Assembly: GCF_018326005.1 (NCBI RefSeq)
Contig: NZ_AP021903.1
Span: 1,614,001-1,678,000 of the forward strand
From: Pseudomonas sp. Seg1
GTDB taxonomy: Bacteria; Pseudomonadota; Gammaproteobacteria; Pseudomonadales; Pseudomonadaceae
Reading direction: 5' to 3'
Length of the DNA: 64,000 nucleotides
The notes under the pieces were generated by a model. That model saw nothing but the letters and a program-made list of their open reading frames with translations, made no database searches and was not told where the DNA came from. The position numbers and the translations under genes were made by a program. The first letter of the stretch is position 1, and every line of letters begins with the position of its first letter. Positions 33,498 to 44,140 of this stretch are shown piece by piece.

Positions 33498-33587
33498 GGA
33501 GAGATGCCAGAGTGGCCGAATGGGACGGATTCGAAATCCGTTGTACCTTCACCGGTACCTAGGGTTCGAATCCCTATCTCTCCGCCA
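33498..33587 (+). tRNA. tRNA-Ser(CGA)
   Basis: 90-nt class II tRNA: acceptor GGAGAGA pairing with TCTCTCC, D-arm, anticodon arm GGATTCGAAATCC with anticodon CGA, long variable arm (GTACCTTCACCGGTAC region), T-arm AGGGTTCGAATCCCT and encoded CCA. Confidence 0.97.
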
Positions 33588-33595
33588 TATATAGA

Positions 33596-33630
33596 AAAAT
33601 CCCCGTAGATGAAAATCTACGGGGATTTTT
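33596..33630 (+). terminator. Rho-independent terminator after tRNA-Ser
   Basis: Perfect 15-bp stem AAAATCCCCGTAGAT/ATCTACGGGGATTTT with GAAA loop (33596-33610 and 33615-33629), then T-run. Confidence 0.9.
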
Positions 33631-33645
33631 TGTTTTCGGTGCCTT

Positions 33646-33683
33646 GGAAAAGCCCCACAAAATTCACTCTGTGGGGCTTTTCC
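33646..33683. terminator. Second hairpin (bidirectional), serves the minus-strand gene
   Basis: Perfect 14-bp stem GGAAAAGCCCCACA with TGTGGGGCTTTTCC, ten-nt loop. On the minus strand it ends with TTTTCC and lies 38 nt past the stop of the 33721 gene. Confidence 0.7.
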
Positions 33684-33720
33684 ATGTCTGCAGGGTCTAA
33701 AGCTCCCCGCAATCAATCAC

Positions 33721-33927
33721 TCACGGCTGCGAGTGCCCCAGCTTCCGTTTGATCAATTCATACACATCCTTATGCGTCGAATTGTGCAGCGTCTTGTCCT
33801 TGCATGCCGAGCTGAGGAAGGTTTTCACTTCGTCCTTGGCATGTGGGTAGAGGCCGGCGACATAGTCCGCTTCGTGTTCTTGCGAGCAGTTGAAGTGCTT
33901 GTCGTCTTTCGCTTTGTCTCTAGCCAT
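33721..33927 (-). CDS. Small charged protein, function unknown
   Basis: 68-aa Lys/Asp/His-rich protein (MARDKAKDDKHFNCSQEHEAD ...). It contains two cysteines, CSQEHE and SSACKDK, and ends in a helix LIKRKLGHSQP. Start at 33927 follows AAAGGAG. No signal peptide or membrane segment. The protein could be a small stress or DUF-type protein; I do not recognise a named family. Confidence 0.7.
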   Translation of the reverse strand: MARDKAKDDKHFNCSQEHEADYVAGLYPHAKDEVKTFLSSACKDKTLHNSTHKDVYELIKRKLGHSQP

Positions 33928-34079
33928 TTTTACGGCTCCTTTCGAGTTCGATTGATCAGGTGGAACAGGGCCGGATTGCCCCATACGCCGGTCAGCGTAG
34001 GGGCGTTGGGATAACTCGCCACTGGTTCGAACAAAAAAGGAAAGGGCTGTAGGACGCAGTCGTGCATTGGCTCTCGCGG

Positions 34080-34271
34080 TTAAATCTCCTTGACCGGCGT
34101 CTCTCCCGTTGCACCCTTGATCAGCGCGATCACATGCAAACAATCCGCCTTGTTCACATACGACTCGCCGCTGGCGATGGTCTCGTGATTGCCCGCGCGC
34201 AGCCTCCAGCGCCATTGGCCTTTGCCGGTGCTTGGGGTGCCTCTGGATTGCCTGTAAATCTCGAAATACAT
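34080..34271 (-). CDS. DUF1508/YegP-family protein
   Basis: 63-aa protein of the YegP type. The family shows FEIYRxxRGxxxxGxGQWRWRLRAGNHExIASGESYxNKADC, here almost entirely visible (FEIYRQSRGTPSTGKG ... WRLRAGNHETIASGES). The family is a small alpha-beta fold with unknown function, sometimes near stress genes. Monocistronic; no strong upstream promoter seen. Confidence 0.8.
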   Translation of the reverse strand: MYFEIYRQSRGTPSTGKGQWRWRLRAGNHETIASGESYVNKADCLHVIALIKGATGETPVKEI

Positions 34272-34548
34272 TCAGTTCGCTCCATGCGATTTGTGCGTGC
34301 GACAGCCTGTGTGGCGCATCGACGCAAGCCTAGCGCAGGCGGGTATTTTGGCTATCGGACATTTGTTTCCAATCGTTCGCGGATGTTTCTGAGGAGTGCG
34401 GACTAGAGCGCCGGGTCAGGCCTCTGGTTTGGCCGAAATGACGCCGTTTGACCCTTGCAACGCCGTCGACGCTACTGCTTAATACGGGACGGCTCATGGC
34501 GTCGAAAATCTTTCGTCGACCGACAAACACTATAAAAAGAGCACTTCT

Positions 34549-35514
34549 TTGACTGAGCACGGAACGCAACAGGCCGTTCGGGTGACGTTATCGCTGGTTG
34601 TCCCCGTTTTTAACGAGGAGGACAGTCTCGACACGTTTCTCCTGCGCATAGATGAGGTCTTTCAGACCCAGCCGTCAATTGACCTTGAACTGGTGTTCGT
34701 CAATGACGGCAGCACTGATACCACGTTGCAGCGTTTACTTGAGCGCCAGCAGCGAGACTCGCGCCTGCGCATCGTCGATCTGAGTCGCAACTTCGGCAAA
34801 GAGGCGGCGTTGTCTGCCGGTCTGCAAATGGCGACGGGGCAGATCGTGGTGCCGATCGATGCCGATCTGCAGGATCCGCCTGAAGTGATCCTGCAAATGA
34901 TCGAGCGCTGGCGGGAAGGCTACGAAGTGGTGCTGGGCCATCGCATCAGTCGTCGCAGCGATACCTGGGCCAAGCAGACCTCGGCGCACTGGTTCTATCG
35001 CCTGCACAATAAAATCGCCGAACAGCCATTGCCGGAGAACGTCGGCGACTTCCGCCTGATGGATCGTTGTGTGGTCGATGCGTTGCTGACCTTGCCGGAG
35101 TCCCGACGCTTCATGAAAGGCTTGTTCGCCTGGGTCGGATTTCGCACCACTCACGTCGATTACGAGCGCCCCGAGCGCGTGGCCGGGCACAGCAAGTTCA
35201 ACGGCTGGCGACTGTGGAATTTTGCCCTGGAAGGCATCACCAGTTTCAGCACCGAACCGTTGCGGATCTGGACGTACATCGGGGCACTGGTGTCGCTGGT
35301 GTCGTTTGCCTTCGCCATTTTTATCGTGGTTCGTACGCTGGTCCACGGTGTCGACATGCCTGGTTACGCCTCGCTGATGGTCGCGGTCACGTTCCTTGGC
35401 GGCCTGCAATTGATTGGCATCGGTGTGCTCGGCGAGTACCTGGGCCGCACTTATATCGAATCCAAACGCCGGCCGGTTTATCTGGTGCGTCGCGTCTACG
35501 ACCCCAAGGACTGA
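34549..35514 (+). CDS. GtrB-like polyprenyl-phosphate glycosyltransferase (GT2)
   Basis: 321 aa. TTG start at 34549 is the best initiation available (weak GAG upstream). GT-A domain: LSLVVPVFNEEDSL at 14-27, VNDGSTD at 51-57, and the catalytic DADLQDPP at 104-111. Two membrane helices near the C-terminus (about 240-262 and 275-297). This is the DPM1/GtrB/ArnC type, expected to load a sugar from a nucleotide donor onto undecaprenyl phosphate. It leads an operon with a methyltransferase (three bases on), gtrA and a GT-C-like gene. Confidence 0.88.
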   Translation: MTEHGTQQAVRVTLSLVVPVFNEEDSLDTFLLRIDEVFQTQPSIDLELVFVNDGSTDTTLQRLLERQQRDSRLRIVDLSRNFGKEAALSAGLQMATGQIVVPIDADLQDPPEVILQMIERWREGYEVVLGHRISRRSDTWAKQTSAHWFYRLHNKIAEQPLPENVGDFRLMDRCVVDALLTLPESRRFMKGLFAWVGFRTTHVDYERPERVAGHSKFNGWRLWNFALEGITSFSTEPLRIWTYIGALVSLVSFAFAIFIVVRTLVHGVDMPGYASLMVAVTFLGGLQLIGIGVLGEYLGRTYIESKRRPVYLVRRVYDPKD

Positions 35515-35517
35515 CAC

Positions 35518-36228
35518 ATGGATCTCAAGGAAACCGACATCCTCGGCGACAGCATCGGCGAGCATTGGTATTACTGCTCCAAAGCGGCAGCCACCCGTCG
35601 CTTGCTCGGCAATGCGCCGATCAAGCGGATTCTCGATGTGGGCGCCGGTTCCGGGTTTTTCTCCCATCATCTGTTGAGCCAGACCGATGCGCGTGAGGCC
35701 TGGTGCGTGGATATCAGCTACCCCGTTGATTCAGATGCAACCACCACCGGCAAACCGGTGCATTACCGGCGCGGCATCGAAACCATTGACGCCGATCTCG
35801 TGCTGCTGATGGATGTCCTTGAACACGTCGATGACGACCTCGGTCTGCTCAGGGAATACGTCGACAAAGTGCCGCCCGGCAGCCGCTTTCTGATGACGGT
35901 GCCGGCGTTCCAGTTTCTCTGGAGCGGCCACGACGACTTTCTTGAACACAAGCGCCGCTACACCTTGGCACAGTTCGAGACACTGGCTCGCGATGCCGGC
36001 CTGACGGTGCAGCGCGGTGCCTATTATTTCGGCGCGGTGTTCCCGATTGCGGCGGCACTGCGTTTGCTGCCACAGGGCCCACAGACTGCAACGCCACGCT
36101 CGCAGCTCAAGCGTCATCACCCGCTGGTGAACTCGGTGCTCAAGGCCCTTTGCAGCCTGGAGCTGCCATTGATGGGCATCAATCGCCTCGCCGGTTTGAG
36201 CGTTTTTGTGCTGGCGCAAAAACCGTGA
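35518..36228 (+). CDS. Class I SAM-dependent methyltransferase of the glycan operon
   Basis: 236 aa. Rossmann SAM-binding motif I ILDVGAGSGFFS (about 38-49), motif II around AWCVDIS (Asp), motif III/IV LLMDVLEHVDDD, then GSRFLMTVPAFQFLWS. HEHVD-like EHVDDD is common in Ubi/Ubie-like and polysaccharide O-methyltransferases. Lies between GtrB-like and GtrA genes; its stop overlaps the next start (GTGA). Substrate is unknown but could be the carrier-linked sugar or lipid. Confidence 0.82.
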   Translation: MDLKETDILGDSIGEHWYYCSKAAATRRLLGNAPIKRILDVGAGSGFFSHHLLSQTDAREAWCVDISYPVDSDATTTGKPVHYRRGIETIDADLVLLMDVLEHVDDDLGLLREYVDKVPPGSRFLMTVPAFQFLWSGHDDFLEHKRRYTLAQFETLARDAGLTVQRGAYYFGAVFPIAAALRLLPQGPQTATPRSQLKRHHPLVNSVLKALCSLELPLMGINRLAGLSVFVLAQKP

Positions 36229-36611
36229 CCTCAGCGGAAAAATCCCTGTTGATCCAGCGCGGTTTGCGTTTTGCCTTGACCGGGATTTTCGTCACTGGCT
36301 TGCATGCCCTGGTCGCGGTGCTGTTCATCAATTTCATCGCCCCTCAGCCACCGCTTGCCAACGGCGTGGCTTTTGCCGTCGCGACCGTCGTTTCCTACGT
36401 GATCAACACCACCTGGAGTTTCTCGGCCCGGCTGCATGGCAGAACCCTGATGCGTTTTCTGCTGGTATCGCTGGGTGGGTTTTTATTGGCGATGTTGGTT
36501 GCCTGGGGTGCGCAAATGGCCGGGCTCCACTATCTGTTGGGCATCGGAGCGGTGGCGCTGACGATTCCGGCATTCACTTTTGTGCTGCATAACTTCTGGA
36601 CGTATCGATGA
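36225..36611 (+). CDS. GtrA-family flippase-like protein
   Basis: 128-aa protein with four predicted membrane helices (LRFALTGIFVTGLHALVAVLF, LANGVAFAVATVVSYVIN, LMRFLLVSLGGFLLAMLV, YLLGIGAVALTIPAFTFVLHNFWTYR) and the usual GtrA ending HNFWTYR. GtrA proteins flip polyprenyl-phosphate-linked sugars across the membrane. GTG start at 36225 overlaps the methyltransferase stop; its own TGA overlaps the next ATG. Confidence 0.9.
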   Translation: MTSAEKSLLIQRGLRFALTGIFVTGLHALVAVLFINFIAPQPPLANGVAFAVATVVSYVINTTWSFSARLHGRTLMRFLLVSLGGFLLAMLVAWGAQMAGLHYLLGIGAVALTIPAFTFVLHNFWTYR

Positions 36612-38704
36612 AGGTTTCGAACACCCATCCGGCCCTCGCGTTGCTACCGATCCTGCTGGGCGTGCTGGTGTTCTTCCTGGTGATCGGTCCACAGGCGCTG
36701 GATCCGCAGAACATCGCTTGGTTGAAGGACGGTGATCCGGCAACGCATTATTTGGGTTGGGTGAATTTCCGTCATTCGCCCTGGACGTTTCCGCTCGGGC
36801 TCAACCCGTCGTATGGGTTGGAGCTGGGCAGCGCGATCATCTTTTCTGACTCCAATCCACTGATGGCGTTGCTGTTCAAACCGTTCAGTGGCTGGTTGCC
36901 GGACACCTTTCAGTATTTCGGAATCTGGTTGCTGGCCTGTTTCGTTTTGCAGGCCTGGTTTGCCTGGCAATTGCTCGGGTTGATGACTGATAACCCCGTG
37001 CTTCGACTGCTGGGCGCGGGCCTGTTGGTGTTTTCTCCGCCGATGTTTCTTCGTACCGGAGGGCACTTGTCCCTGGCCGGACACTTCCTGATTCTGGCGG
37101 CCCTTTACCTGGCGCTGCAGCCGATGCTCCAACGGCGGCGCCTGGCATGGGGCGCATTACTGGCCGCCACCGCACTGGTGCATGCGTATCTGTTGGTGAT
37201 GGTGGCGCTGATCTGGGTGGCGGATCTGCTTGGCAAGGTCTGGGTAGGCAGGCTGACCCGACGTCAGGGCCTGATCGAGTTCGCCAGTCTGTTTGCCCTG
37301 GTCAGCGTGTGCTGCTGGCAAGCCGGGTATTTCAGCATTGTCGACGGCGCGGGCGGTGGCGGGTTTGGCTGGTATCGAATGAATCTGCTGTCCCTGGTCG
37401 ATTCGGATGGCTGGTCATATGTTCTGCCAAACCTTGCCAACGGCGGCGGCGATTATGAAGGCTTCAATTATCTGGGCCTCGGGGTTCTGTTGCTGGTGCC
37501 ATTGGCGGGCATCGCCTGGTTCAGAAGCGGCATTTCCTTGAAGGCGTTGCTGCGCAGCCGGCCCTGGTTGGTGTTGGCGATGCTGGGATTGACCCTGTTC
37601 GCACTGTCGAACCAGATCGGTTGGGGCACGCACACGTTCAGCTATCCGCTACCCAAAATCCTTGAGCGTCTGGCGAGTATTTTTCGCGCCTCGGGTCGCA
37701 TGTTCTGGCCGGTGTTTTACACCATCGTCGTGTTGCTGGTGTTCTTCGTCGTGCGGGGCTATCGAACGCGTACCGCCATCGGTTTGCTGGCACTGGCGCT
37801 GGTGGTGCAAGTGGTGGATACCCGCATCGCCTGGGCGAGTTTGCGGGCGGCGAAAATGCTGCCACCGACATCCACCTGGGCCAGCCCCATGCATGATCCT
37901 TTCTGGGACAGCGCCGCGGCTCATTACAAGAATATCCGCGCGATGATCCCGAAAAATCAGCCCGATCAGTGGCAGGCCATCGCCGATTTCGCCGCTGCTC
38001 ATCGATTGCAGACCGATGCCGTGTACATGGGGCGCATGAGTCCTTCTGTCCTCGAACGCACCCAGCTCGATGCGCAGCGCAGGCTGGCGACGGGCGATTA
38101 CGAGGCCGACTCGCTGTACATCATTGATGATGAGGCGTTGGACGCGGCCATCAACAGTGTGCACAGCGACACTGACCTGCTGACTCGCGTAGACGATTTT
38201 GTTGTATTGGCACCGGGCTGGAAACACTGCAATCAATGCCTGGCGATGGTTGATGAGGGGCGGGCAATGTCCTCGATTCCGTCCAGCCAGTCAGGGCTGG
38301 TGCAGACATTCAATCGTAAAAGCCGACAGCTGACCAAGGGCTGGGCGGCGCCTGAAACCTGGGGTACCTGGAGCGAAGGGACGGAGGCTGAAATCACCCT
38401 GCGGGTGAAGCCGGATACCCAAGTGATCGTGCTGGAGGCACTGGCATTCGTGATGCCGCCAGGTCTTACCCAGCGAGTCATCGTCAGCATCAATGGTGAA
38501 CAGGTGTTGTCGACGCGTCTGACGCAGGTGCAAGACAACCGGCTGGAAATTCCGCTCAGTACGGCCATCCGCGAGACGTTGGGCAAGAATGGTCTGCTGA
38601 AACTTCAGTTGCATCTGCCCGATGCCGTCAGCCCGCAACAGCTGGGCTTGAATGATGATGCGCGGGTCATGGGGCTGGGGTTGAAAACGCTGACCGTCCA
38701 CTAA
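36608..38704 (+). CDS. Large polytopic membrane protein, GT-C-like glucosyltransferase (GtrC position)
   Basis: 698 aa with roughly 11-13 hydrophobic segments in the first 430 residues, then a soluble C-terminal domain of about 270 residues. Early periplasmic motif DGDPATHYLGWVNFRHSPW (about 41-59) carries the acidic pair typical of GT-C active sites; further LNPSYGLELGSAI and SLAGHFLILAALYLALQ follow. The C-terminus (EITLRVKPDTQVIVLEA ... LLKLQLHLPDA) looks beta-rich, like a binding domain. Final gene of the GtrB-MT-GtrA unit, so likely transfers the flipped sugar onto a surface acceptor. Named family uncertain (I would say DUF6311-like). Confidence 0.75.
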   Translation: MKVSNTHPALALLPILLGVLVFFLVIGPQALDPQNIAWLKDGDPATHYLGWVNFRHSPWTFPLGLNPSYGLELGSAIIFSDSNPLMALLFKPFSGWLPDTFQYFGIWLLACFVLQAWFAWQLLGLMTDNPVLRLLGAGLLVFSPPMFLRTGGHLSLAGHFLILAALYLALQPMLQRRRLAWGALLAATALVHAYLLVMVALIWVADLLGKVWVGRLTRRQGLIEFASLFALVSVCCWQAGYFSIVDGAGGGGFGWYRMNLLSLVDSDGWSYVLPNLANGGGDYEGFNYLGLGVLLLVPLAGIAWFRSGISLKALLRSRPWLVLAMLGLTLFALSNQIGWGTHTFSYPLPKILERLASIFRASGRMFWPVFYTIVVLLVFFVVRGYRTRTAIGLLALALVVQVVDTRIAWASLRAAKMLPPTSTWASPMHDPFWDSAAAHYKNIRAMIPKNQPDQWQAIADFAAAHRLQTDAVYMGRMSPSVLERTQLDAQRRLATGDYEADSLYIIDDEALDAAINSVHSDTDLLTRVDDFVVLAPGWKHCNQCLAMVDEGRAMSSIPSSQSGLVQTFNRKSRQLTKGWAAPETWGTWSEGTEAEITLRVKPDTQVIVLEALAFVMPPGLTQRVIVSINGEQVLSTRLTQVQDNRLEIPLSTAIRETLGKNGLLKLQLHLPDAVSPQQLGLNDDARVMGLGLKTLTVH

Positions 38705-38791
38705 GCGCTGAAACACTGTGTGGATGCTGATGGACGCCAGGCCCAAGGACTTTCTACACTGCCTCCAGTCTGGGGATCAGGGGAGCAATGG

Positions 38792-39712
38792 ATGAATCGA
38801 AATGAACTGCGCAAGGCTGACATCAACCTGATGGTGGTGTTCGAGACCTTGATGCTCGAACGCAATGTGACCCGGGCGGCGGAAAAGCTTTTTCTCGGCC
38901 AGCCGACCATCAGCTCGGCGCTCAATCGCTTGCGCTCGATGTTCAACGATCCATTGTTTATCCGCGTCGGCCATCGCATGGAGCCTACGGCCCGTGCCGA
39001 AGAACTGTTTCGTCATCTCTCGCCGGCGCTCGATTCGCTGTCCGTCGCGCTGAGCCTGACGCACAATTTCGATCCTGCGGTCAGCAACATGACCTTTCGT
39101 ATCGGCTTGTCCGATGACGTCGAGTTCGGCCTGTTGCCACCCTTGCTGCGCGCCCTGCGCCAGGAAGCGCCGAAAGTCGTGTTTGTGGTGCAACACGTCG
39201 ATTACTGGCGGATTCCCGACTTGCTCGCAGCGGGTGATATCACCGTGGGTATCAGCCAGACCCGTGGTTTGCCGGCGAATGCCAAACGCAAACTGCTGCG
39301 GCATATCCAGCCGAGTATCCTGCGTGCCGATGCATCCGACTCACCGTTGACCCTCGATGAATACTGCTCGCGCCCCCATGTGCTGGTTTCCCACACGGCG
39401 AACATCAGTGGTTACGCTGACGAGTGGCTCGCCGAACTCGGTCGCACCCGGCAGGTCGTGTTGTCAGTGCCGCAATACAGCGCATTGCCTGCCTTGTTGG
39501 CCGGGACGGATCTGATTGCCAGTCTGCCGGATTACACCGCCGAGGCCATGGCTGCGTCCGGATTGCTGTTCAAAGAACCGTTTCCCTTCAAGACGCCGAT
39601 GCTCGATCTATCGATGGTCTGGCTCAGTCACGTCGACAGCGACCCGGCCGAACGCTGGTTACGTTCGCGGCTGGAAGCGTTCATGAGCGAGCGCCCCCTC
39701 ACCGCGCCTTGA
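38792..39712 (+). CDS. LysR-family transcriptional regulator
   Basis: 306 aa. Winged HTH in residues 1-65 (DINLMVVFETLMLERNVTRAAEKLFLGQPTISSALNRLRSMFNDPLFIR), of the NodD/LeuO/SyrM-like branch. Effector domain about 90-305. Start at 38792 (MNRNELRKADIN) follows GGGGAG. It is codirectional with the glycan operon, 87 nt after it, and converges on the next LysR gene. Target and effector unknown. Confidence 0.85.
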   Translation: MNRNELRKADINLMVVFETLMLERNVTRAAEKLFLGQPTISSALNRLRSMFNDPLFIRVGHRMEPTARAEELFRHLSPALDSLSVALSLTHNFDPAVSNMTFRIGLSDDVEFGLLPPLLRALRQEAPKVVFVVQHVDYWRIPDLLAAGDITVGISQTRGLPANAKRKLLRHIQPSILRADASDSPLTLDEYCSRPHVLVSHTANISGYADEWLAELGRTRQVVLSVPQYSALPALLAGTDLIASLPDYTAEAMAASGLLFKEPFPFKTPMLDLSMVWLSHVDSDPAERWLRSRLEAFMSERPLTAP

Positions 39713-42364: not shown

Positions 42365-42389
42365 GCCAACTAATCGTTGGCGTCTTTTT
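42365..42389 (+). terminator. Leader hairpin upstream of eptA
   Basis: Stem GCCAAC/GTTGGC (42365-42370, 42376-42381), then GTCTTTTT. Terminator-like in the leader of eptA; could be attenuator or leftover terminator. Confidence 0.35.
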
Positions 42390-42490
42390 CACAAAAAATT
42401 GATGGTTGCCTGCCTAAAGTTTGTTATGCCTCGGTTAATGAATTTTTCACAATTAACCCAGGCGCTTCTTTTCAGGAATTGCCCACCTCT

Positions 42491-44140
42491 ATGTTGAAGT
42501 CAAAAACCGTGCGCCCGGAATGGGTGACGTTGATTGCCAGTGCCTTTCTTTTGCTCGGTTTCAACTTTGTGCTCTGGCAGCATTTGTTCGAGATTACTGC
42601 GGCGGATGGCAAAGGCATCGCCATGCGCGTGGCTTTCGCCGTGATGATCTTTGCCGCGTTCAACATCGTGCTGACTTTTCTGGCCTTTCGTCCGCTGCTT
42701 AAACCCATCCTGACTTTGATGTTTTTGATCAGCGCCGGCGTGGCTTATTTCATGAGCCAGTATGGCGTGATGATTGATGCGGGCATGTTTCGAAACTTCG
42801 CTGAAACGAATGTCACGGAAGTGCGTGACTTGTTGTCGTTGAAGTTGTTTATGTATGTCTTGCTGTTAGGCATTTTACCGTCGTGGTTGTTATGGAAAGT
42901 TCCAGTCAACTATCGTCGCTGGCATCACGAACTGCTCAGTAAAGTTGTCGTCAGTGTGGCGTCGGTGGCGGTCATCGGTGGTGTGGCACTGGCCAACTAT
43001 CAGGGATTGTCTTCGCTGTTTCGTAATCACCATGAACTGCGCCTGATGCTCGTGCCGAGCAACTACATTGGCGCGTCGGCCGGTTACCTGCGTGAGCAGG
43101 TCGTCTCGGCGCAGCAACCGTTCGTGAAAATTGGCGAAGACGCACAACGCAACCCGGATCTGAAAGTCCAGCCGCGCAAATCCCTGACCGTACTGGTGGT
43201 GGGGGAAAGTGCCCGCGCAGAGAACTTCGGCATCCTCGGTTATGGCCGGGACACCACGCCGAAACTGGACAAGGAAGCCGGGCTGATCGCTTTCACCGAT
43301 GTGCATTCCTGCGGCACTGAAACCGCGGTCTCGGTGCCGTGCATGTTTTCCAACATGGGCCGCAAGGATTACGACGCCAGCAAGGCGAAGAACGAAGAAG
43401 GCCTGCTCGACGTGCTCAAGCGTGCCGGCATCGACGTGATCTGGCGTGATAACCAGTCCGGCTGCAAAGGCACCTGTGATCGAGTCACCGTGCAGGATGT
43501 CAGCAACTTGAAGGACCCGACGCTGTGCGCCAGCAGTGAGTGCCGCGACGAAATCCTGCTGCAAGGTCTGCAAGGCTTTATCGATCATCTGGACAAGGAC
43601 ACCGTGCTGGTCCTGCATCAAATGGGTAGTCACGGCCCGGAATACTTCAAGCGTTATCCAAAGGAATACGAGCACTTCACGCCGGTCTGTGAAAGTAACG
43701 CGCTGAACAATTGCAGCCGCGAAAGTATCGTCAACGGTTACGACAACACCCTGGTCTATACCGATCATGTGCTGTCGAGCCTGATCGATGTGTTGCGCAA
43801 CAATCAGGACAAAGTCGATACGGCGATGTTGTATCTGTCTGATCACGGTGAGTCGCTGGGCGAGTACAACTTGTTCCTGCATGGCACGCCTTACATGCTG
43901 GCACCCGAGCAACAAAAGCATGTGGCGATGCTCGCGTGGTTCTCCGACAACTATCAAAAGGCTTATTCGGTCGACACCCATTGCCTGCAAATGAGTCGTG
44001 ACAAACCGTTGAGTCAGGACAATCTGTTCCACTCGATGCTTGGTCTGCTGGAGGTGCGCAGCAAGGTCTATCAGCCGGATCTGGACCTGTTTGCCGGATG
44101 CCGTGGAGCGGTGATTGACGGCGTGCTGGCCAAGGACTGA
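42491..44140 (+). CDS. eptA: Phosphoethanolamine transferase EptA family
   Basis: 549-aa inner-membrane enzyme that adds phosphoethanolamine to lipid A (polymyxin resistance-type modification). Four to five membrane helices in residues 14-170, then a periplasmic catalytic domain. Metal/nucleophile set visible: Glu239 (GESARAENFG), Thr278 in CGTETAVSVPCMF, and Asp451-His452 in LSDHGESLGE; disulphide Cys pairs are present around CKGTCDRV and CASSEC. Start at 42491 follows a weak RBS in the AT-rich leader. It has no adjacent pmrAB. Confidence 0.92.
   Translation: MLKSKTVRPEWVTLIASAFLLLGFNFVLWQHLFEITAADGKGIAMRVAFAVMIFAAFNIVLTFLAFRPLLKPILTLMFLISAGVAYFMSQYGVMIDAGMFRNFAETNVTEVRDLLSLKLFMYVLLLGILPSWLLWKVPVNYRRWHHELLSKVVVSVASVAVIGGVALANYQGLSSLFRNHHELRLMLVPSNYIGASAGYLREQVVSAQQPFVKIGEDAQRNPDLKVQPRKSLTVLVVGESARAENFGILGYGRDTTPKLDKEAGLIAFTDVHSCGTETAVSVPCMFSNMGRKDYDASKAKNEEGLLDVLKRAGIDVIWRDNQSGCKGTCDRVTVQDVSNLKDPTLCASSECRDEILLQGLQGFIDHLDKDTVLVLHQMGSHGPEYFKRYPKEYEHFTPVCESNALNNCSRESIVNGYDNTLVYTDHVLSSLIDVLRNNQDKVDTAMLYLSDHGESLGEYNLFLHGTPYMLAPEQQKHVAMLAWFSDNYQKAYSVDTHCLQMSRDKPLSQDNLFHSMLGLLEVRSKVYQPDLDLFAGCRGAVIDGVLAKD

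Follow-up and report, generated by a model that had tools for sequence, protein, structure and literature searches.

A gtr-like operon of Pseudomonas with a methyltransferase gene coupled between gtrB and gtrA and an exchangeable DUF6311 protein

Layout of the four-gene operon

The window analysed here is a stretch of 64,000 nucleotides, bases 1614001-1678000 of the 6.63-Mb single-contig genome of Pseudomonas sp. Seg1, and it contains four consecutive genes, called B, MT, A and C in the following, that form a gtr-like operon with an embedded methyltransferase gene. The relatives closest to it among those fetched for comparison include strains of P. crudilactis, P. koreensis and P. fluorescens. 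The genes of the operon are as follows, in window coordinates.

34549..35514, + strand: B, gtrB-like polyprenyl-phosphate glycosyltransferase of family GT2; 321 aa, TTG start, PF00535, two C-terminal hydrophobic segments
35518..36228, + strand: MT, class I S-adenosylmethionine (SAM)-dependent methyltransferase; 236 aa, PF13489, without a hydrophobic segment
36225..36611, + strand: A, GtrA-type small membrane protein, putative flippase; 128 aa, GTG start, PF04138, 4 hydrophobic segments
36608..38704, + strand: C, DUF6311 polytopic protein, predicted GT-C glycosyltransferase; 698 aa, PF19830; GT-C part about residues 2-540, jelly roll about residues 561-698, invariant D43 after the first membrane segment

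Inspection of the open reading frames (ORFs), together with the family matches, confirmed the arrangement that an earlier note on this DNA had described: a 3-nt gap between B and MT, followed by a GTGA overlap of MT with A and an ATGA overlap of A with C. We compared these junctions over 50 operons (49 related loci and the window). B and MT are 3 nt apart in 44 operons and 2 nt apart in 6. MT and A share their 4-nt overlap, with a GTG start, in 46, and A and C share theirs, also of 4 nt and with ATG, in all 50. Since the gap and the overlaps are conserved to this extent, the spacing of the four genes is no chance effect. On the other hand, the start codon of B is uncertain from the alignment: the codon aligned with the start in the window is TTG in 24 of the 50 operons, GTG in 3 and a non-start codon in 23, while a TTG or GTG lies one codon upstream in 4 of 15 inspected rows (L037, L016, L027 and L018).

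Families and predicted folds of the four proteins

B has the features of a GtrB-type polyprenyl-phosphate GT2 with two C-terminal membrane segments. It matches the GtrB family phrog_841 of PHROG (2.5e-120), and its nearest solved structure by sequence is the Synechocystis GtrB sll0501 (5ekp, 9e-115). A belongs to the GtrA family of small putative flippases (PF04138, 7.5e-15; 55.6 bits against a cut-off of 26.1), and is the sole GtrA-family match in the whole genome.

MT is a member of the Methyltransf_23 family, is soluble by hydropathy and has a predicted class I methyltransferase fold. Among 32 chosen relatives, 62 columns are invariant, including HWYY near the N-terminus. The top structural matches of its model include the tRNA enzyme CmoM, which is the best match in VIA-align (VIA), and UbiG, RebM and AtmM. 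A sequence search of solved structures gave nothing at E 0.01, and the protein fell far short of the curated NCBIfam cut-offs in the UbiG/BioC comparison (23.8 of 102.95 and 24.8 of 184.95 bits). Action in the periplasm is unlikely, so that MT, if it serves the pathway, should act on the donor before the flip.

C matches DUF6311 (PF19830) at 1.5e-68, with 232.3 bits against a gathering cut-off of 27. The AlphaFold2 model, computed on a 50-row alignment (A1), reached a predicted local distance difference test score (pLDDT) of 89.8 and a predicted template modelling score (pTM) of 0.79. In Foldseek, the five matches at E<=0.001 were oligosaccharyltransferase (OST) chains and AftA. VIA-align, run over the top Foldseek chains, gave scores of 17.2 for OST, 15.6 for AftA, 15.0 for PglB and 13.3 for ArnT over about residues 2-549; with helical models, background alone can reach scores of about 13. 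D43 follows the first membrane segment and is invariant in the alignment, at a position that we take to be the place of the GT-C catalytic acid. By prediction, C is therefore a polytopic GT-C protein with an acidic residue after its first membrane segment, and the GT-C fold that had been proposed for it is borne out at that level. The sequence search of solved structures returned one match for C, at E 0.3, and Foldseek against viral models returned nothing at E<=0.001.

The C-terminal part, about residues 561-698, matches jelly rolls in VIA (reelin 10.6, CBM35 9.8, CBM36 9.4), and in the model it adopts the beta-jelly-roll fold of carbohydrate-binding module (CBM) families 35/36. At the sequence level, the end of C scores 19.0 bits with DUF7024 (PF22895), below the gathering cut-off of 24.4, and some orthologues carry the precomputed domain. 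Thus, of the 270-residue beta-rich C-terminus that the earlier note had described as unusual, the jelly roll stands, whereas residues of about 431-540 are mixed alpha/beta and lie within the part aligning to GT-C enzymes. Nor is such an end without precedent, as a beta-rich CBM is found on the GT-C enzyme ORF12 in the available part of PMC11127046.

Judged from related sequences, the jelly roll may be one module placed on different glycosyltransferase cores. It also terminates other proteins of 616-692 aa (L085-L087 and L093-L095), one of which, in L095, has PMT_2 and DUF7024. Some of these proteins adjoin ORFs resembling ABC-type polysaccharide export genes. In L088, the jelly roll ends a 471-aa ORF resembling GT2.

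Conservation of the gene set

The relatives of C comprised 78 loci, 52 from Pseudomonas and 26 from outside the genus. The order B-MT-A-C occurs in 50 of the 52 Pseudomonas loci, with B in two pieces in one (L014), and the remaining two (L043 and L044) are second copies of C from genomes that also hold an operon copy (L005 and L033). We further surveyed an even draw of 199 Pseudomonas genomes, our own included, counting MT at E<=1e-20. MT was present in 25 genomes, and in all 25 it starts within 13 nt of a B match. C, nearly full length and with at least 50% identity, was present in 23 genomes, all with MT; weaker or partial matches in 12 further genomes were left out of this count, and the copy in G125 has an internal stop. 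The same genome holds, far from the operon, a 111-aa open frame matching just the end of C (L089/L090). The proposed co-conservation of the four genes is thus upheld, with the full set in 50 of 52 Pseudomonas loci and MT accompanying C in 23 of 23 genomes.

Two of the 25 genomes carry MT but no such C. In G140, B-MT-A is followed by a 508-aa hydrophobic ORF and then by genes of the histidine-biosynthesis, amidotransferase and asparagine-synthase types, and in G109 by short ORFs. In the genus survey, the B relatives adjoining MT are at least 68% identical to B, while the best MT-free B reaches 58%, and this difference suggests that B and MT form a pair. However, the pattern fails outside the genus, where the B that accompanies MT is at 56% in L114 and at 51% in L116. 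L114 holds B-MT without an A or C match, and in L116 a polytopic ORF, MT, A and B are lined up, with MT at 43% over residues 94-236. Another locus outside Pseudomonas, on a betaproteobacterial contig (L042), has the order C-B-MT-A-C, with two Cs of one kind that are 81% identical.

At strict limits, the class-wide search found MT in 2 of 274 genomes and the phylum-wide search in 4 of 398, our own included in both. The large protein set holds many more relatives, at least 120 per search. As a separate observation, a Polynucleobacter contig (L050) carries five DUF6311 genes within 13 kb, a stretch without matches to B, MT or A, and a different contig of this strain (L054) adds a sixth.

Exchange of C between strains

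Exchange was analysed in 50 operons with the flanking LysR gene, giving 1225 pairs. The median pairwise identity is 85 for B, 83 for MT, 85 for A, 56 for C and 93 for LysR. The Spearman coefficients of C identity are 0.11 with B, 0.14 with MT, 0.08 with A and 0.07 with LysR, and that of B with LysR is 0.79. Among the 64 pairs having B>=95 and MT>=90, 15 have C below 60; in the pair L041/L055, for example, B is at 98, MT at 97, A at 91 and LysR at 100, and C is at 51. In four chosen pairs of this kind, the nucleotide identity drops at the start of C and is back to 87-100% within about 30-120 nt after it, and in three of the four, A is already down to about 70-90% before the C boundary. The third component therefore varies while A and B are conserved, as in known gtr systems. 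We also considered that C merely evolves fast and dropped this explanation, as the low rank correlation and pairs like L041/L055 fit exchange better.

At 60% average identity, C falls into three Pseudomonas classes of 33, 14 and 11 sequences, and the 50 operon copies divide into 30 of class I, 9 of class II and 11 of class III. The tree of B, MT, A and LysR, obtained by a quick search with no bootstrap, needs at least 13 changes of C class; shuffled classes need 18.3 on average, and none of 200 shuffles was as low. On the strongly supported branches, class I must have changed at least 7 times, class II at least 6 times and class III at least 3 times. Because the changes are many and yet fewer than in the shuffled classes, the sequences indicate that the C class is partly inherited and often replaced, and that C alleles are swapped among otherwise alike operons by recombination. 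Between classes, the first 150 residues are the least divergent and the jelly roll the most (69-73% vs 36-40%), a gradient that could also reflect relaxed constraint.

Two full-length Cs occur in five Pseudomonas genomes (our own, G111, G108, RIT288 and P. crudilactis), each with one of class I and one of class II, where the operon C of G111 was assigned to class I from its 80% identity to the C of the window. The second Cs of G111 and P. crudilactis are 98% identical, so that these two genomes may not be independent cases. In G108, the two Cs stand in tandem. The second C of our own genome (L080, G000:C1:6582-8663) is of class II and lies 6.6 kb into the contig, and that of L043 lies after gyrB, between gyrB and genes resembling a two-component system. 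In L080, L043, L044 and L091, the second class II DUF6311 gene has no B, MT or A match nearby, and such copies would have to rely on the donor that the operon supplies.

Relatives on viral contigs, a plasmid and polysaccharide loci

DUF6311 relatives occur on nine viral contigs of IMG/VR, with gtrB adjoining or one gene away in eight. GtrA was found by BLAST in two of them (L098 and L100), and for L098 PHROG gave the same result. Confirmed baseplate genes are present in L098, L099 and L102, and confirmed integrases in L104 and L106. MT relatives occur on 22 viral contigs, seven of them at 63-67% identity. Three of these seven carry MT together with B: L140 has phage tail genes followed by B-MT-A and a polytopic ORF that runs off the contig, L143 a phage lysozyme gene followed by B-MT up to the contig end, and L137 B-MT and a polytopic ORF, with no GtrA match, followed by baseplate genes. 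Named phage genomes gave no match for C and none for MT. Two viral relatives of C likewise gave no match in named phages, and one of them had no near-identical match in E. coli either, so that the phage evidence rests on the IMG/VR contigs.

A plasmid of Deltaproteobacteria bacterium Smac51 carries a glycosyltransferase gene, MT, GtrA and C in this order, near an annotated ABC transporter and glycosyltransferases. L084 has DUF6311-gtrB-gtrA beside Wzt and GT4-type genes. In L082, the B-MT-A set lies beside HisF/HisH/amidotransferase-type genes, which are of a kind known from O-antigen loci.

Genomic slot and neighbouring genes

The operon fills a variable slot between a tRNA gene and a regulator gene.

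33498..33587, + strand: tRNA-Ser(CGA), left border of the slot (ARAGORN, slot comparison)
38777..39712, + strand: LysR-family regulator, right border of the slot and flank outside the operon (PF00126/PF03466)

The LysR gene was found in 120 of the 199 Pseudomonas genomes (E<=1e-130), 97 of them without a nearly full-length C, and LysR-adjoining stretches were taken from 20 of these 97. The tRNA lies within the stretch in five. In L124, it is about 155 nt from LysR, giving an empty site, and other DNA fills the slot in L118 (about 1.0 kb), L125 (about 2.8 kb), L128 (about 7.1 kb) and L132 (about 6.7 kb). The other 15 stretches, one of only 1.4 kb, end before the tRNA. No integrase was recognised by eye among the ORF starts in seven of the 20 stretches, and no 10-15-nt repeat of the tRNA-Ser 3' end, as a trace of an attachment site, was found in about 33600-38900.

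Several side observations concern this neighbourhood. The Pseudomonas operon comes after dapA-bamC-MBL-purC. On four contigs of metagenome-assembled genomes (L057-L060; three from Burkholderiales, L057 from Proteobacteria), a DUF6311 gene stands divergent beside dapA, with a dapA-MBL-purC group in three of the four, and in L114 the B-MT pair is about 1.5 kb from an ORF resembling purC. This may be chance or a shared hot spot. Downstream of the operon, at 42377-44140, an ORF resembles by eye an EptA-like phosphoethanolamine transferase, and it is kept in many relatives.

Proposed function and alternatives

Homology, fold and context give good support to the glycan-modification role, of a gtr-like kind, that the earlier note had proposed. 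Gene content, order, conservation, predicted folds, the exchange of C and the carriage on viral contigs were obtained here directly; the sugar, the substrate of MT and the O-antigen as acceptor are what we infer. The operon probably encodes a gtr-type three-component extracytoplasmic glycosylation system together with a donor-modifying methyltransferase, in which C would be the exchangeable acceptor/linkage module and the O-antigen the acceptor. GtrB would load a hexose, probably glucose, onto undecaprenyl phosphate at the cytoplasmic face, the cytoplasmic MT would methylate the lipid-linked sugar before export, and GtrA would flip it across the membrane. In the periplasm, C would use D43 to transfer the sugar to a surface polysaccharide, most likely the O-antigen of lipopolysaccharide, assisted by its carbohydrate-binding-like domain. 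The gene order B-MT-A-C would mirror the order of these reactions, and recombination would swap C while the donor-making part stays.

Several findings weigh against this interpretation. Outside Pseudomonas, 25 of the 26 C loci lack an MT match, and in L049, a 4.7-kb contig, C comes directly after B (69%), and neither MT nor GtrA was matched. Other DUF6311 systems, such as the viral contigs with gtrB-DUF6311 and L084/L085, show no MT, so methylation is not needed by the DUF6311 family. Conversely, two MT relatives stand alone (L113, directly before tRNA-Pro(GGG), and L115), in stretches of 15 kb each that hold no match to B, A or C. The other four of the seven viral contigs (L138, L139, L141 and L142) have MT alone at the contig end, about 0.1-0.2 kb before tRNA-Pro(GGG); in L138 a confirmed integrase gene follows, and these contig ends are probably host flank. 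The tie of MT to the cassette, on which the proposal of the earlier note also depends, therefore holds in most settings, while solo MT copies and MT-free B or C loci exist. The model of MT matches methyltransferases of many substrates (tRNA, quinone, sugar), so that the substrate cannot be read from the fold. The open-access literature yielded neither an enzyme assay nor a glycan structure for any member. Finally, the near neighbours of the operon in the window are not O-antigen genes.

This last point favours a different acceptor, another surface glycan or a glycoprotein such as exopolysaccharide, pilin or flagellin, and the best structural matches of C do include protein glycosyltransferases (OST, PglB and PMT). 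However, the jelly roll at the end of C is similar to polysaccharide-binding modules, gtrB accompanies DUF6311 on viral contigs, and relatives lie beside Wzt/GT4-type genes (L084) or, as a B-MT-A set, beside the HisF/HisH/amidotransferase-type genes (L082). An acceptor of this kind is rather unlikely, although it is the alternative that survives best.

It is also unlikely that MT, within the same gtr-like system, methylates a nucleotide sugar before GtrB uses it, or another cytoplasmic precursor, instead of the lipid-linked sugar. The solubility of MT and the likeness of its fold to RebM and AtmM, soluble small-molecule methyltransferases, and also to UbiG agree with this alternative. Against it stand the coupling of MT between B and A in 50 of 50 operons and the B-MT pairing in the genus survey, which does not extend outside the genus (L114, L116 and L049).

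A passenger MT that serves some unrelated function, on RNA or quinones for instance, would account for the solo relatives, the weak BioC and UbiG matches and the best VIA match with CmoM, but we regard it as quite improbable, given the linkage of MT to B in 25 of 25 Pseudomonas genomes, on the plasmid, on the betaproteobacterial contig and on three viral contigs, and given how far the BioC and UbiG cut-offs were missed. Least probable is a chain terminator that caps the O-polysaccharide while B, A and C alone glycosylate it, as a WbdD-like methyltransferase-kinase does for an ABC-transporter-type O-antigen (described in the available part of PMC11127046), because the 236-aa MT matches methyltransferase families alone, has no kinase part and stays with B, on the three viral contigs too.

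Returning to the gtr-type system with a donor-modifying methyltransferase, we put forward a more specific form with greater reserve. It would be a four-component system of the lysogenic-conversion type, in which MT acts on the polyprenyl-phosphate sugar and a pre-methylated hexose is flipped and placed onto the O-antigen. The B-MT-A part would be common to phages, a plasmid and chromosomes, and would serve exchangeable GT-C cartridges of the DUF6311 or another type; classes I and II would share one donor module in some Pseudomonas.

Comparison with known systems and implications

In Salmonella, the GtrA and GtrB families are alike and the GtrC families are not, with shuffling and operons beside tRNA genes (PMC3688519, available in part). 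The gtrABC systems of Salmonella and Shigella resemble the present operon, as far as that part goes, in conserved GtrA/GtrB, a divergent third gene, shuffling, tRNA-side location and phage carriage. They differ in their A-B-C order, as opposed to B-MT-A-C, in lacking the additional MT, and in that the operon here has a DUF6311 GT-C enzyme with a CBM-like end and occupies a chromosomal slot where no integrase was recognised and no tRNA-end repeat was found. In Pseudomonas donghuensis HYS, a gtrA/B/II cluster is reported to be involved in O-antigen glucosylation (PMC8509367); its order is A-B-II, its enzyme is of the GtrII type, and the word methyltransferase is absent from that text.

In the three-component pentofuranose system of Citrobacter youngae, a GT-C enzyme is likewise joined to a CBM, and an auxiliary enzyme, there an epimerase, alters the donor sugar. 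The beta-rich CBM of ORF12 (GT136), which follows the GT-C membrane part, binds the unmodified O-antigen. In that system, however, the donor comes from phosphoribosyl pyrophosphate (PRPP) and the flippase is of the MATE type, whereas the present operon has GtrB and GtrA types and a methyltransferase as auxiliary enzyme (PMC11127046, in the part available). The closest published pairing of a methyltransferase with GtrA that we found in the open literature, again from a partly available source, is the gsf cluster of Actinoplanes missouriensis (PMC13390465), with GtrA-dependent glycosylation and a predicted SAM-dependent methyltransferase domain in AMIS_70470. This cluster belongs to another phylum and has 11 genes; by number, its methyltransferase gene does not adjoin the GtrA gene, 2 membrane helices are predicted in the methyltransferase-domain protein, the source describes the proposed transferase as not GT-C, and methylation is not shown in the available part.

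The mycobacterial arabinosyltransferases AftA and AftD share the GT-C fold with C, and AftD aligns over residues 3-698 with a root-mean-square deviation of 10.5, but no sequence similarity to C was found. Their donor is decaprenyl-phosphate-arabinose.

By analogy with the systems above, the conserved A and B, the divergent third gene, the shuffling and the tRNA-side location belong to gtr logic that is already known. What differs from these systems is the MT coupled between gtrB and gtrA, the gene order, the DUF6311-CBM enzyme and its swapping. Open-access papers yielded none on a methyltransferase coupled between gtrB and gtrA and none on DUF6311, most subscription papers being outside this scope.

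These results suggest that donor-modifying enzymes extend the gtr logic, a part that epimerases play in pentofuranose systems. They offer a testable function for DUF6311, as a periplasmic GT-C glycosyltransferase, and for a widespread, unnamed methyltransferase. Diversifying pressure on the acceptor/linkage step is suggested by the exchange of C alleles among operons that are alike in other respects. If the proposed function is true, O-methyl sugars are predicted as side groups on Pseudomonas surface glycans, where they would plausibly alter phage receptors and antigenicity.

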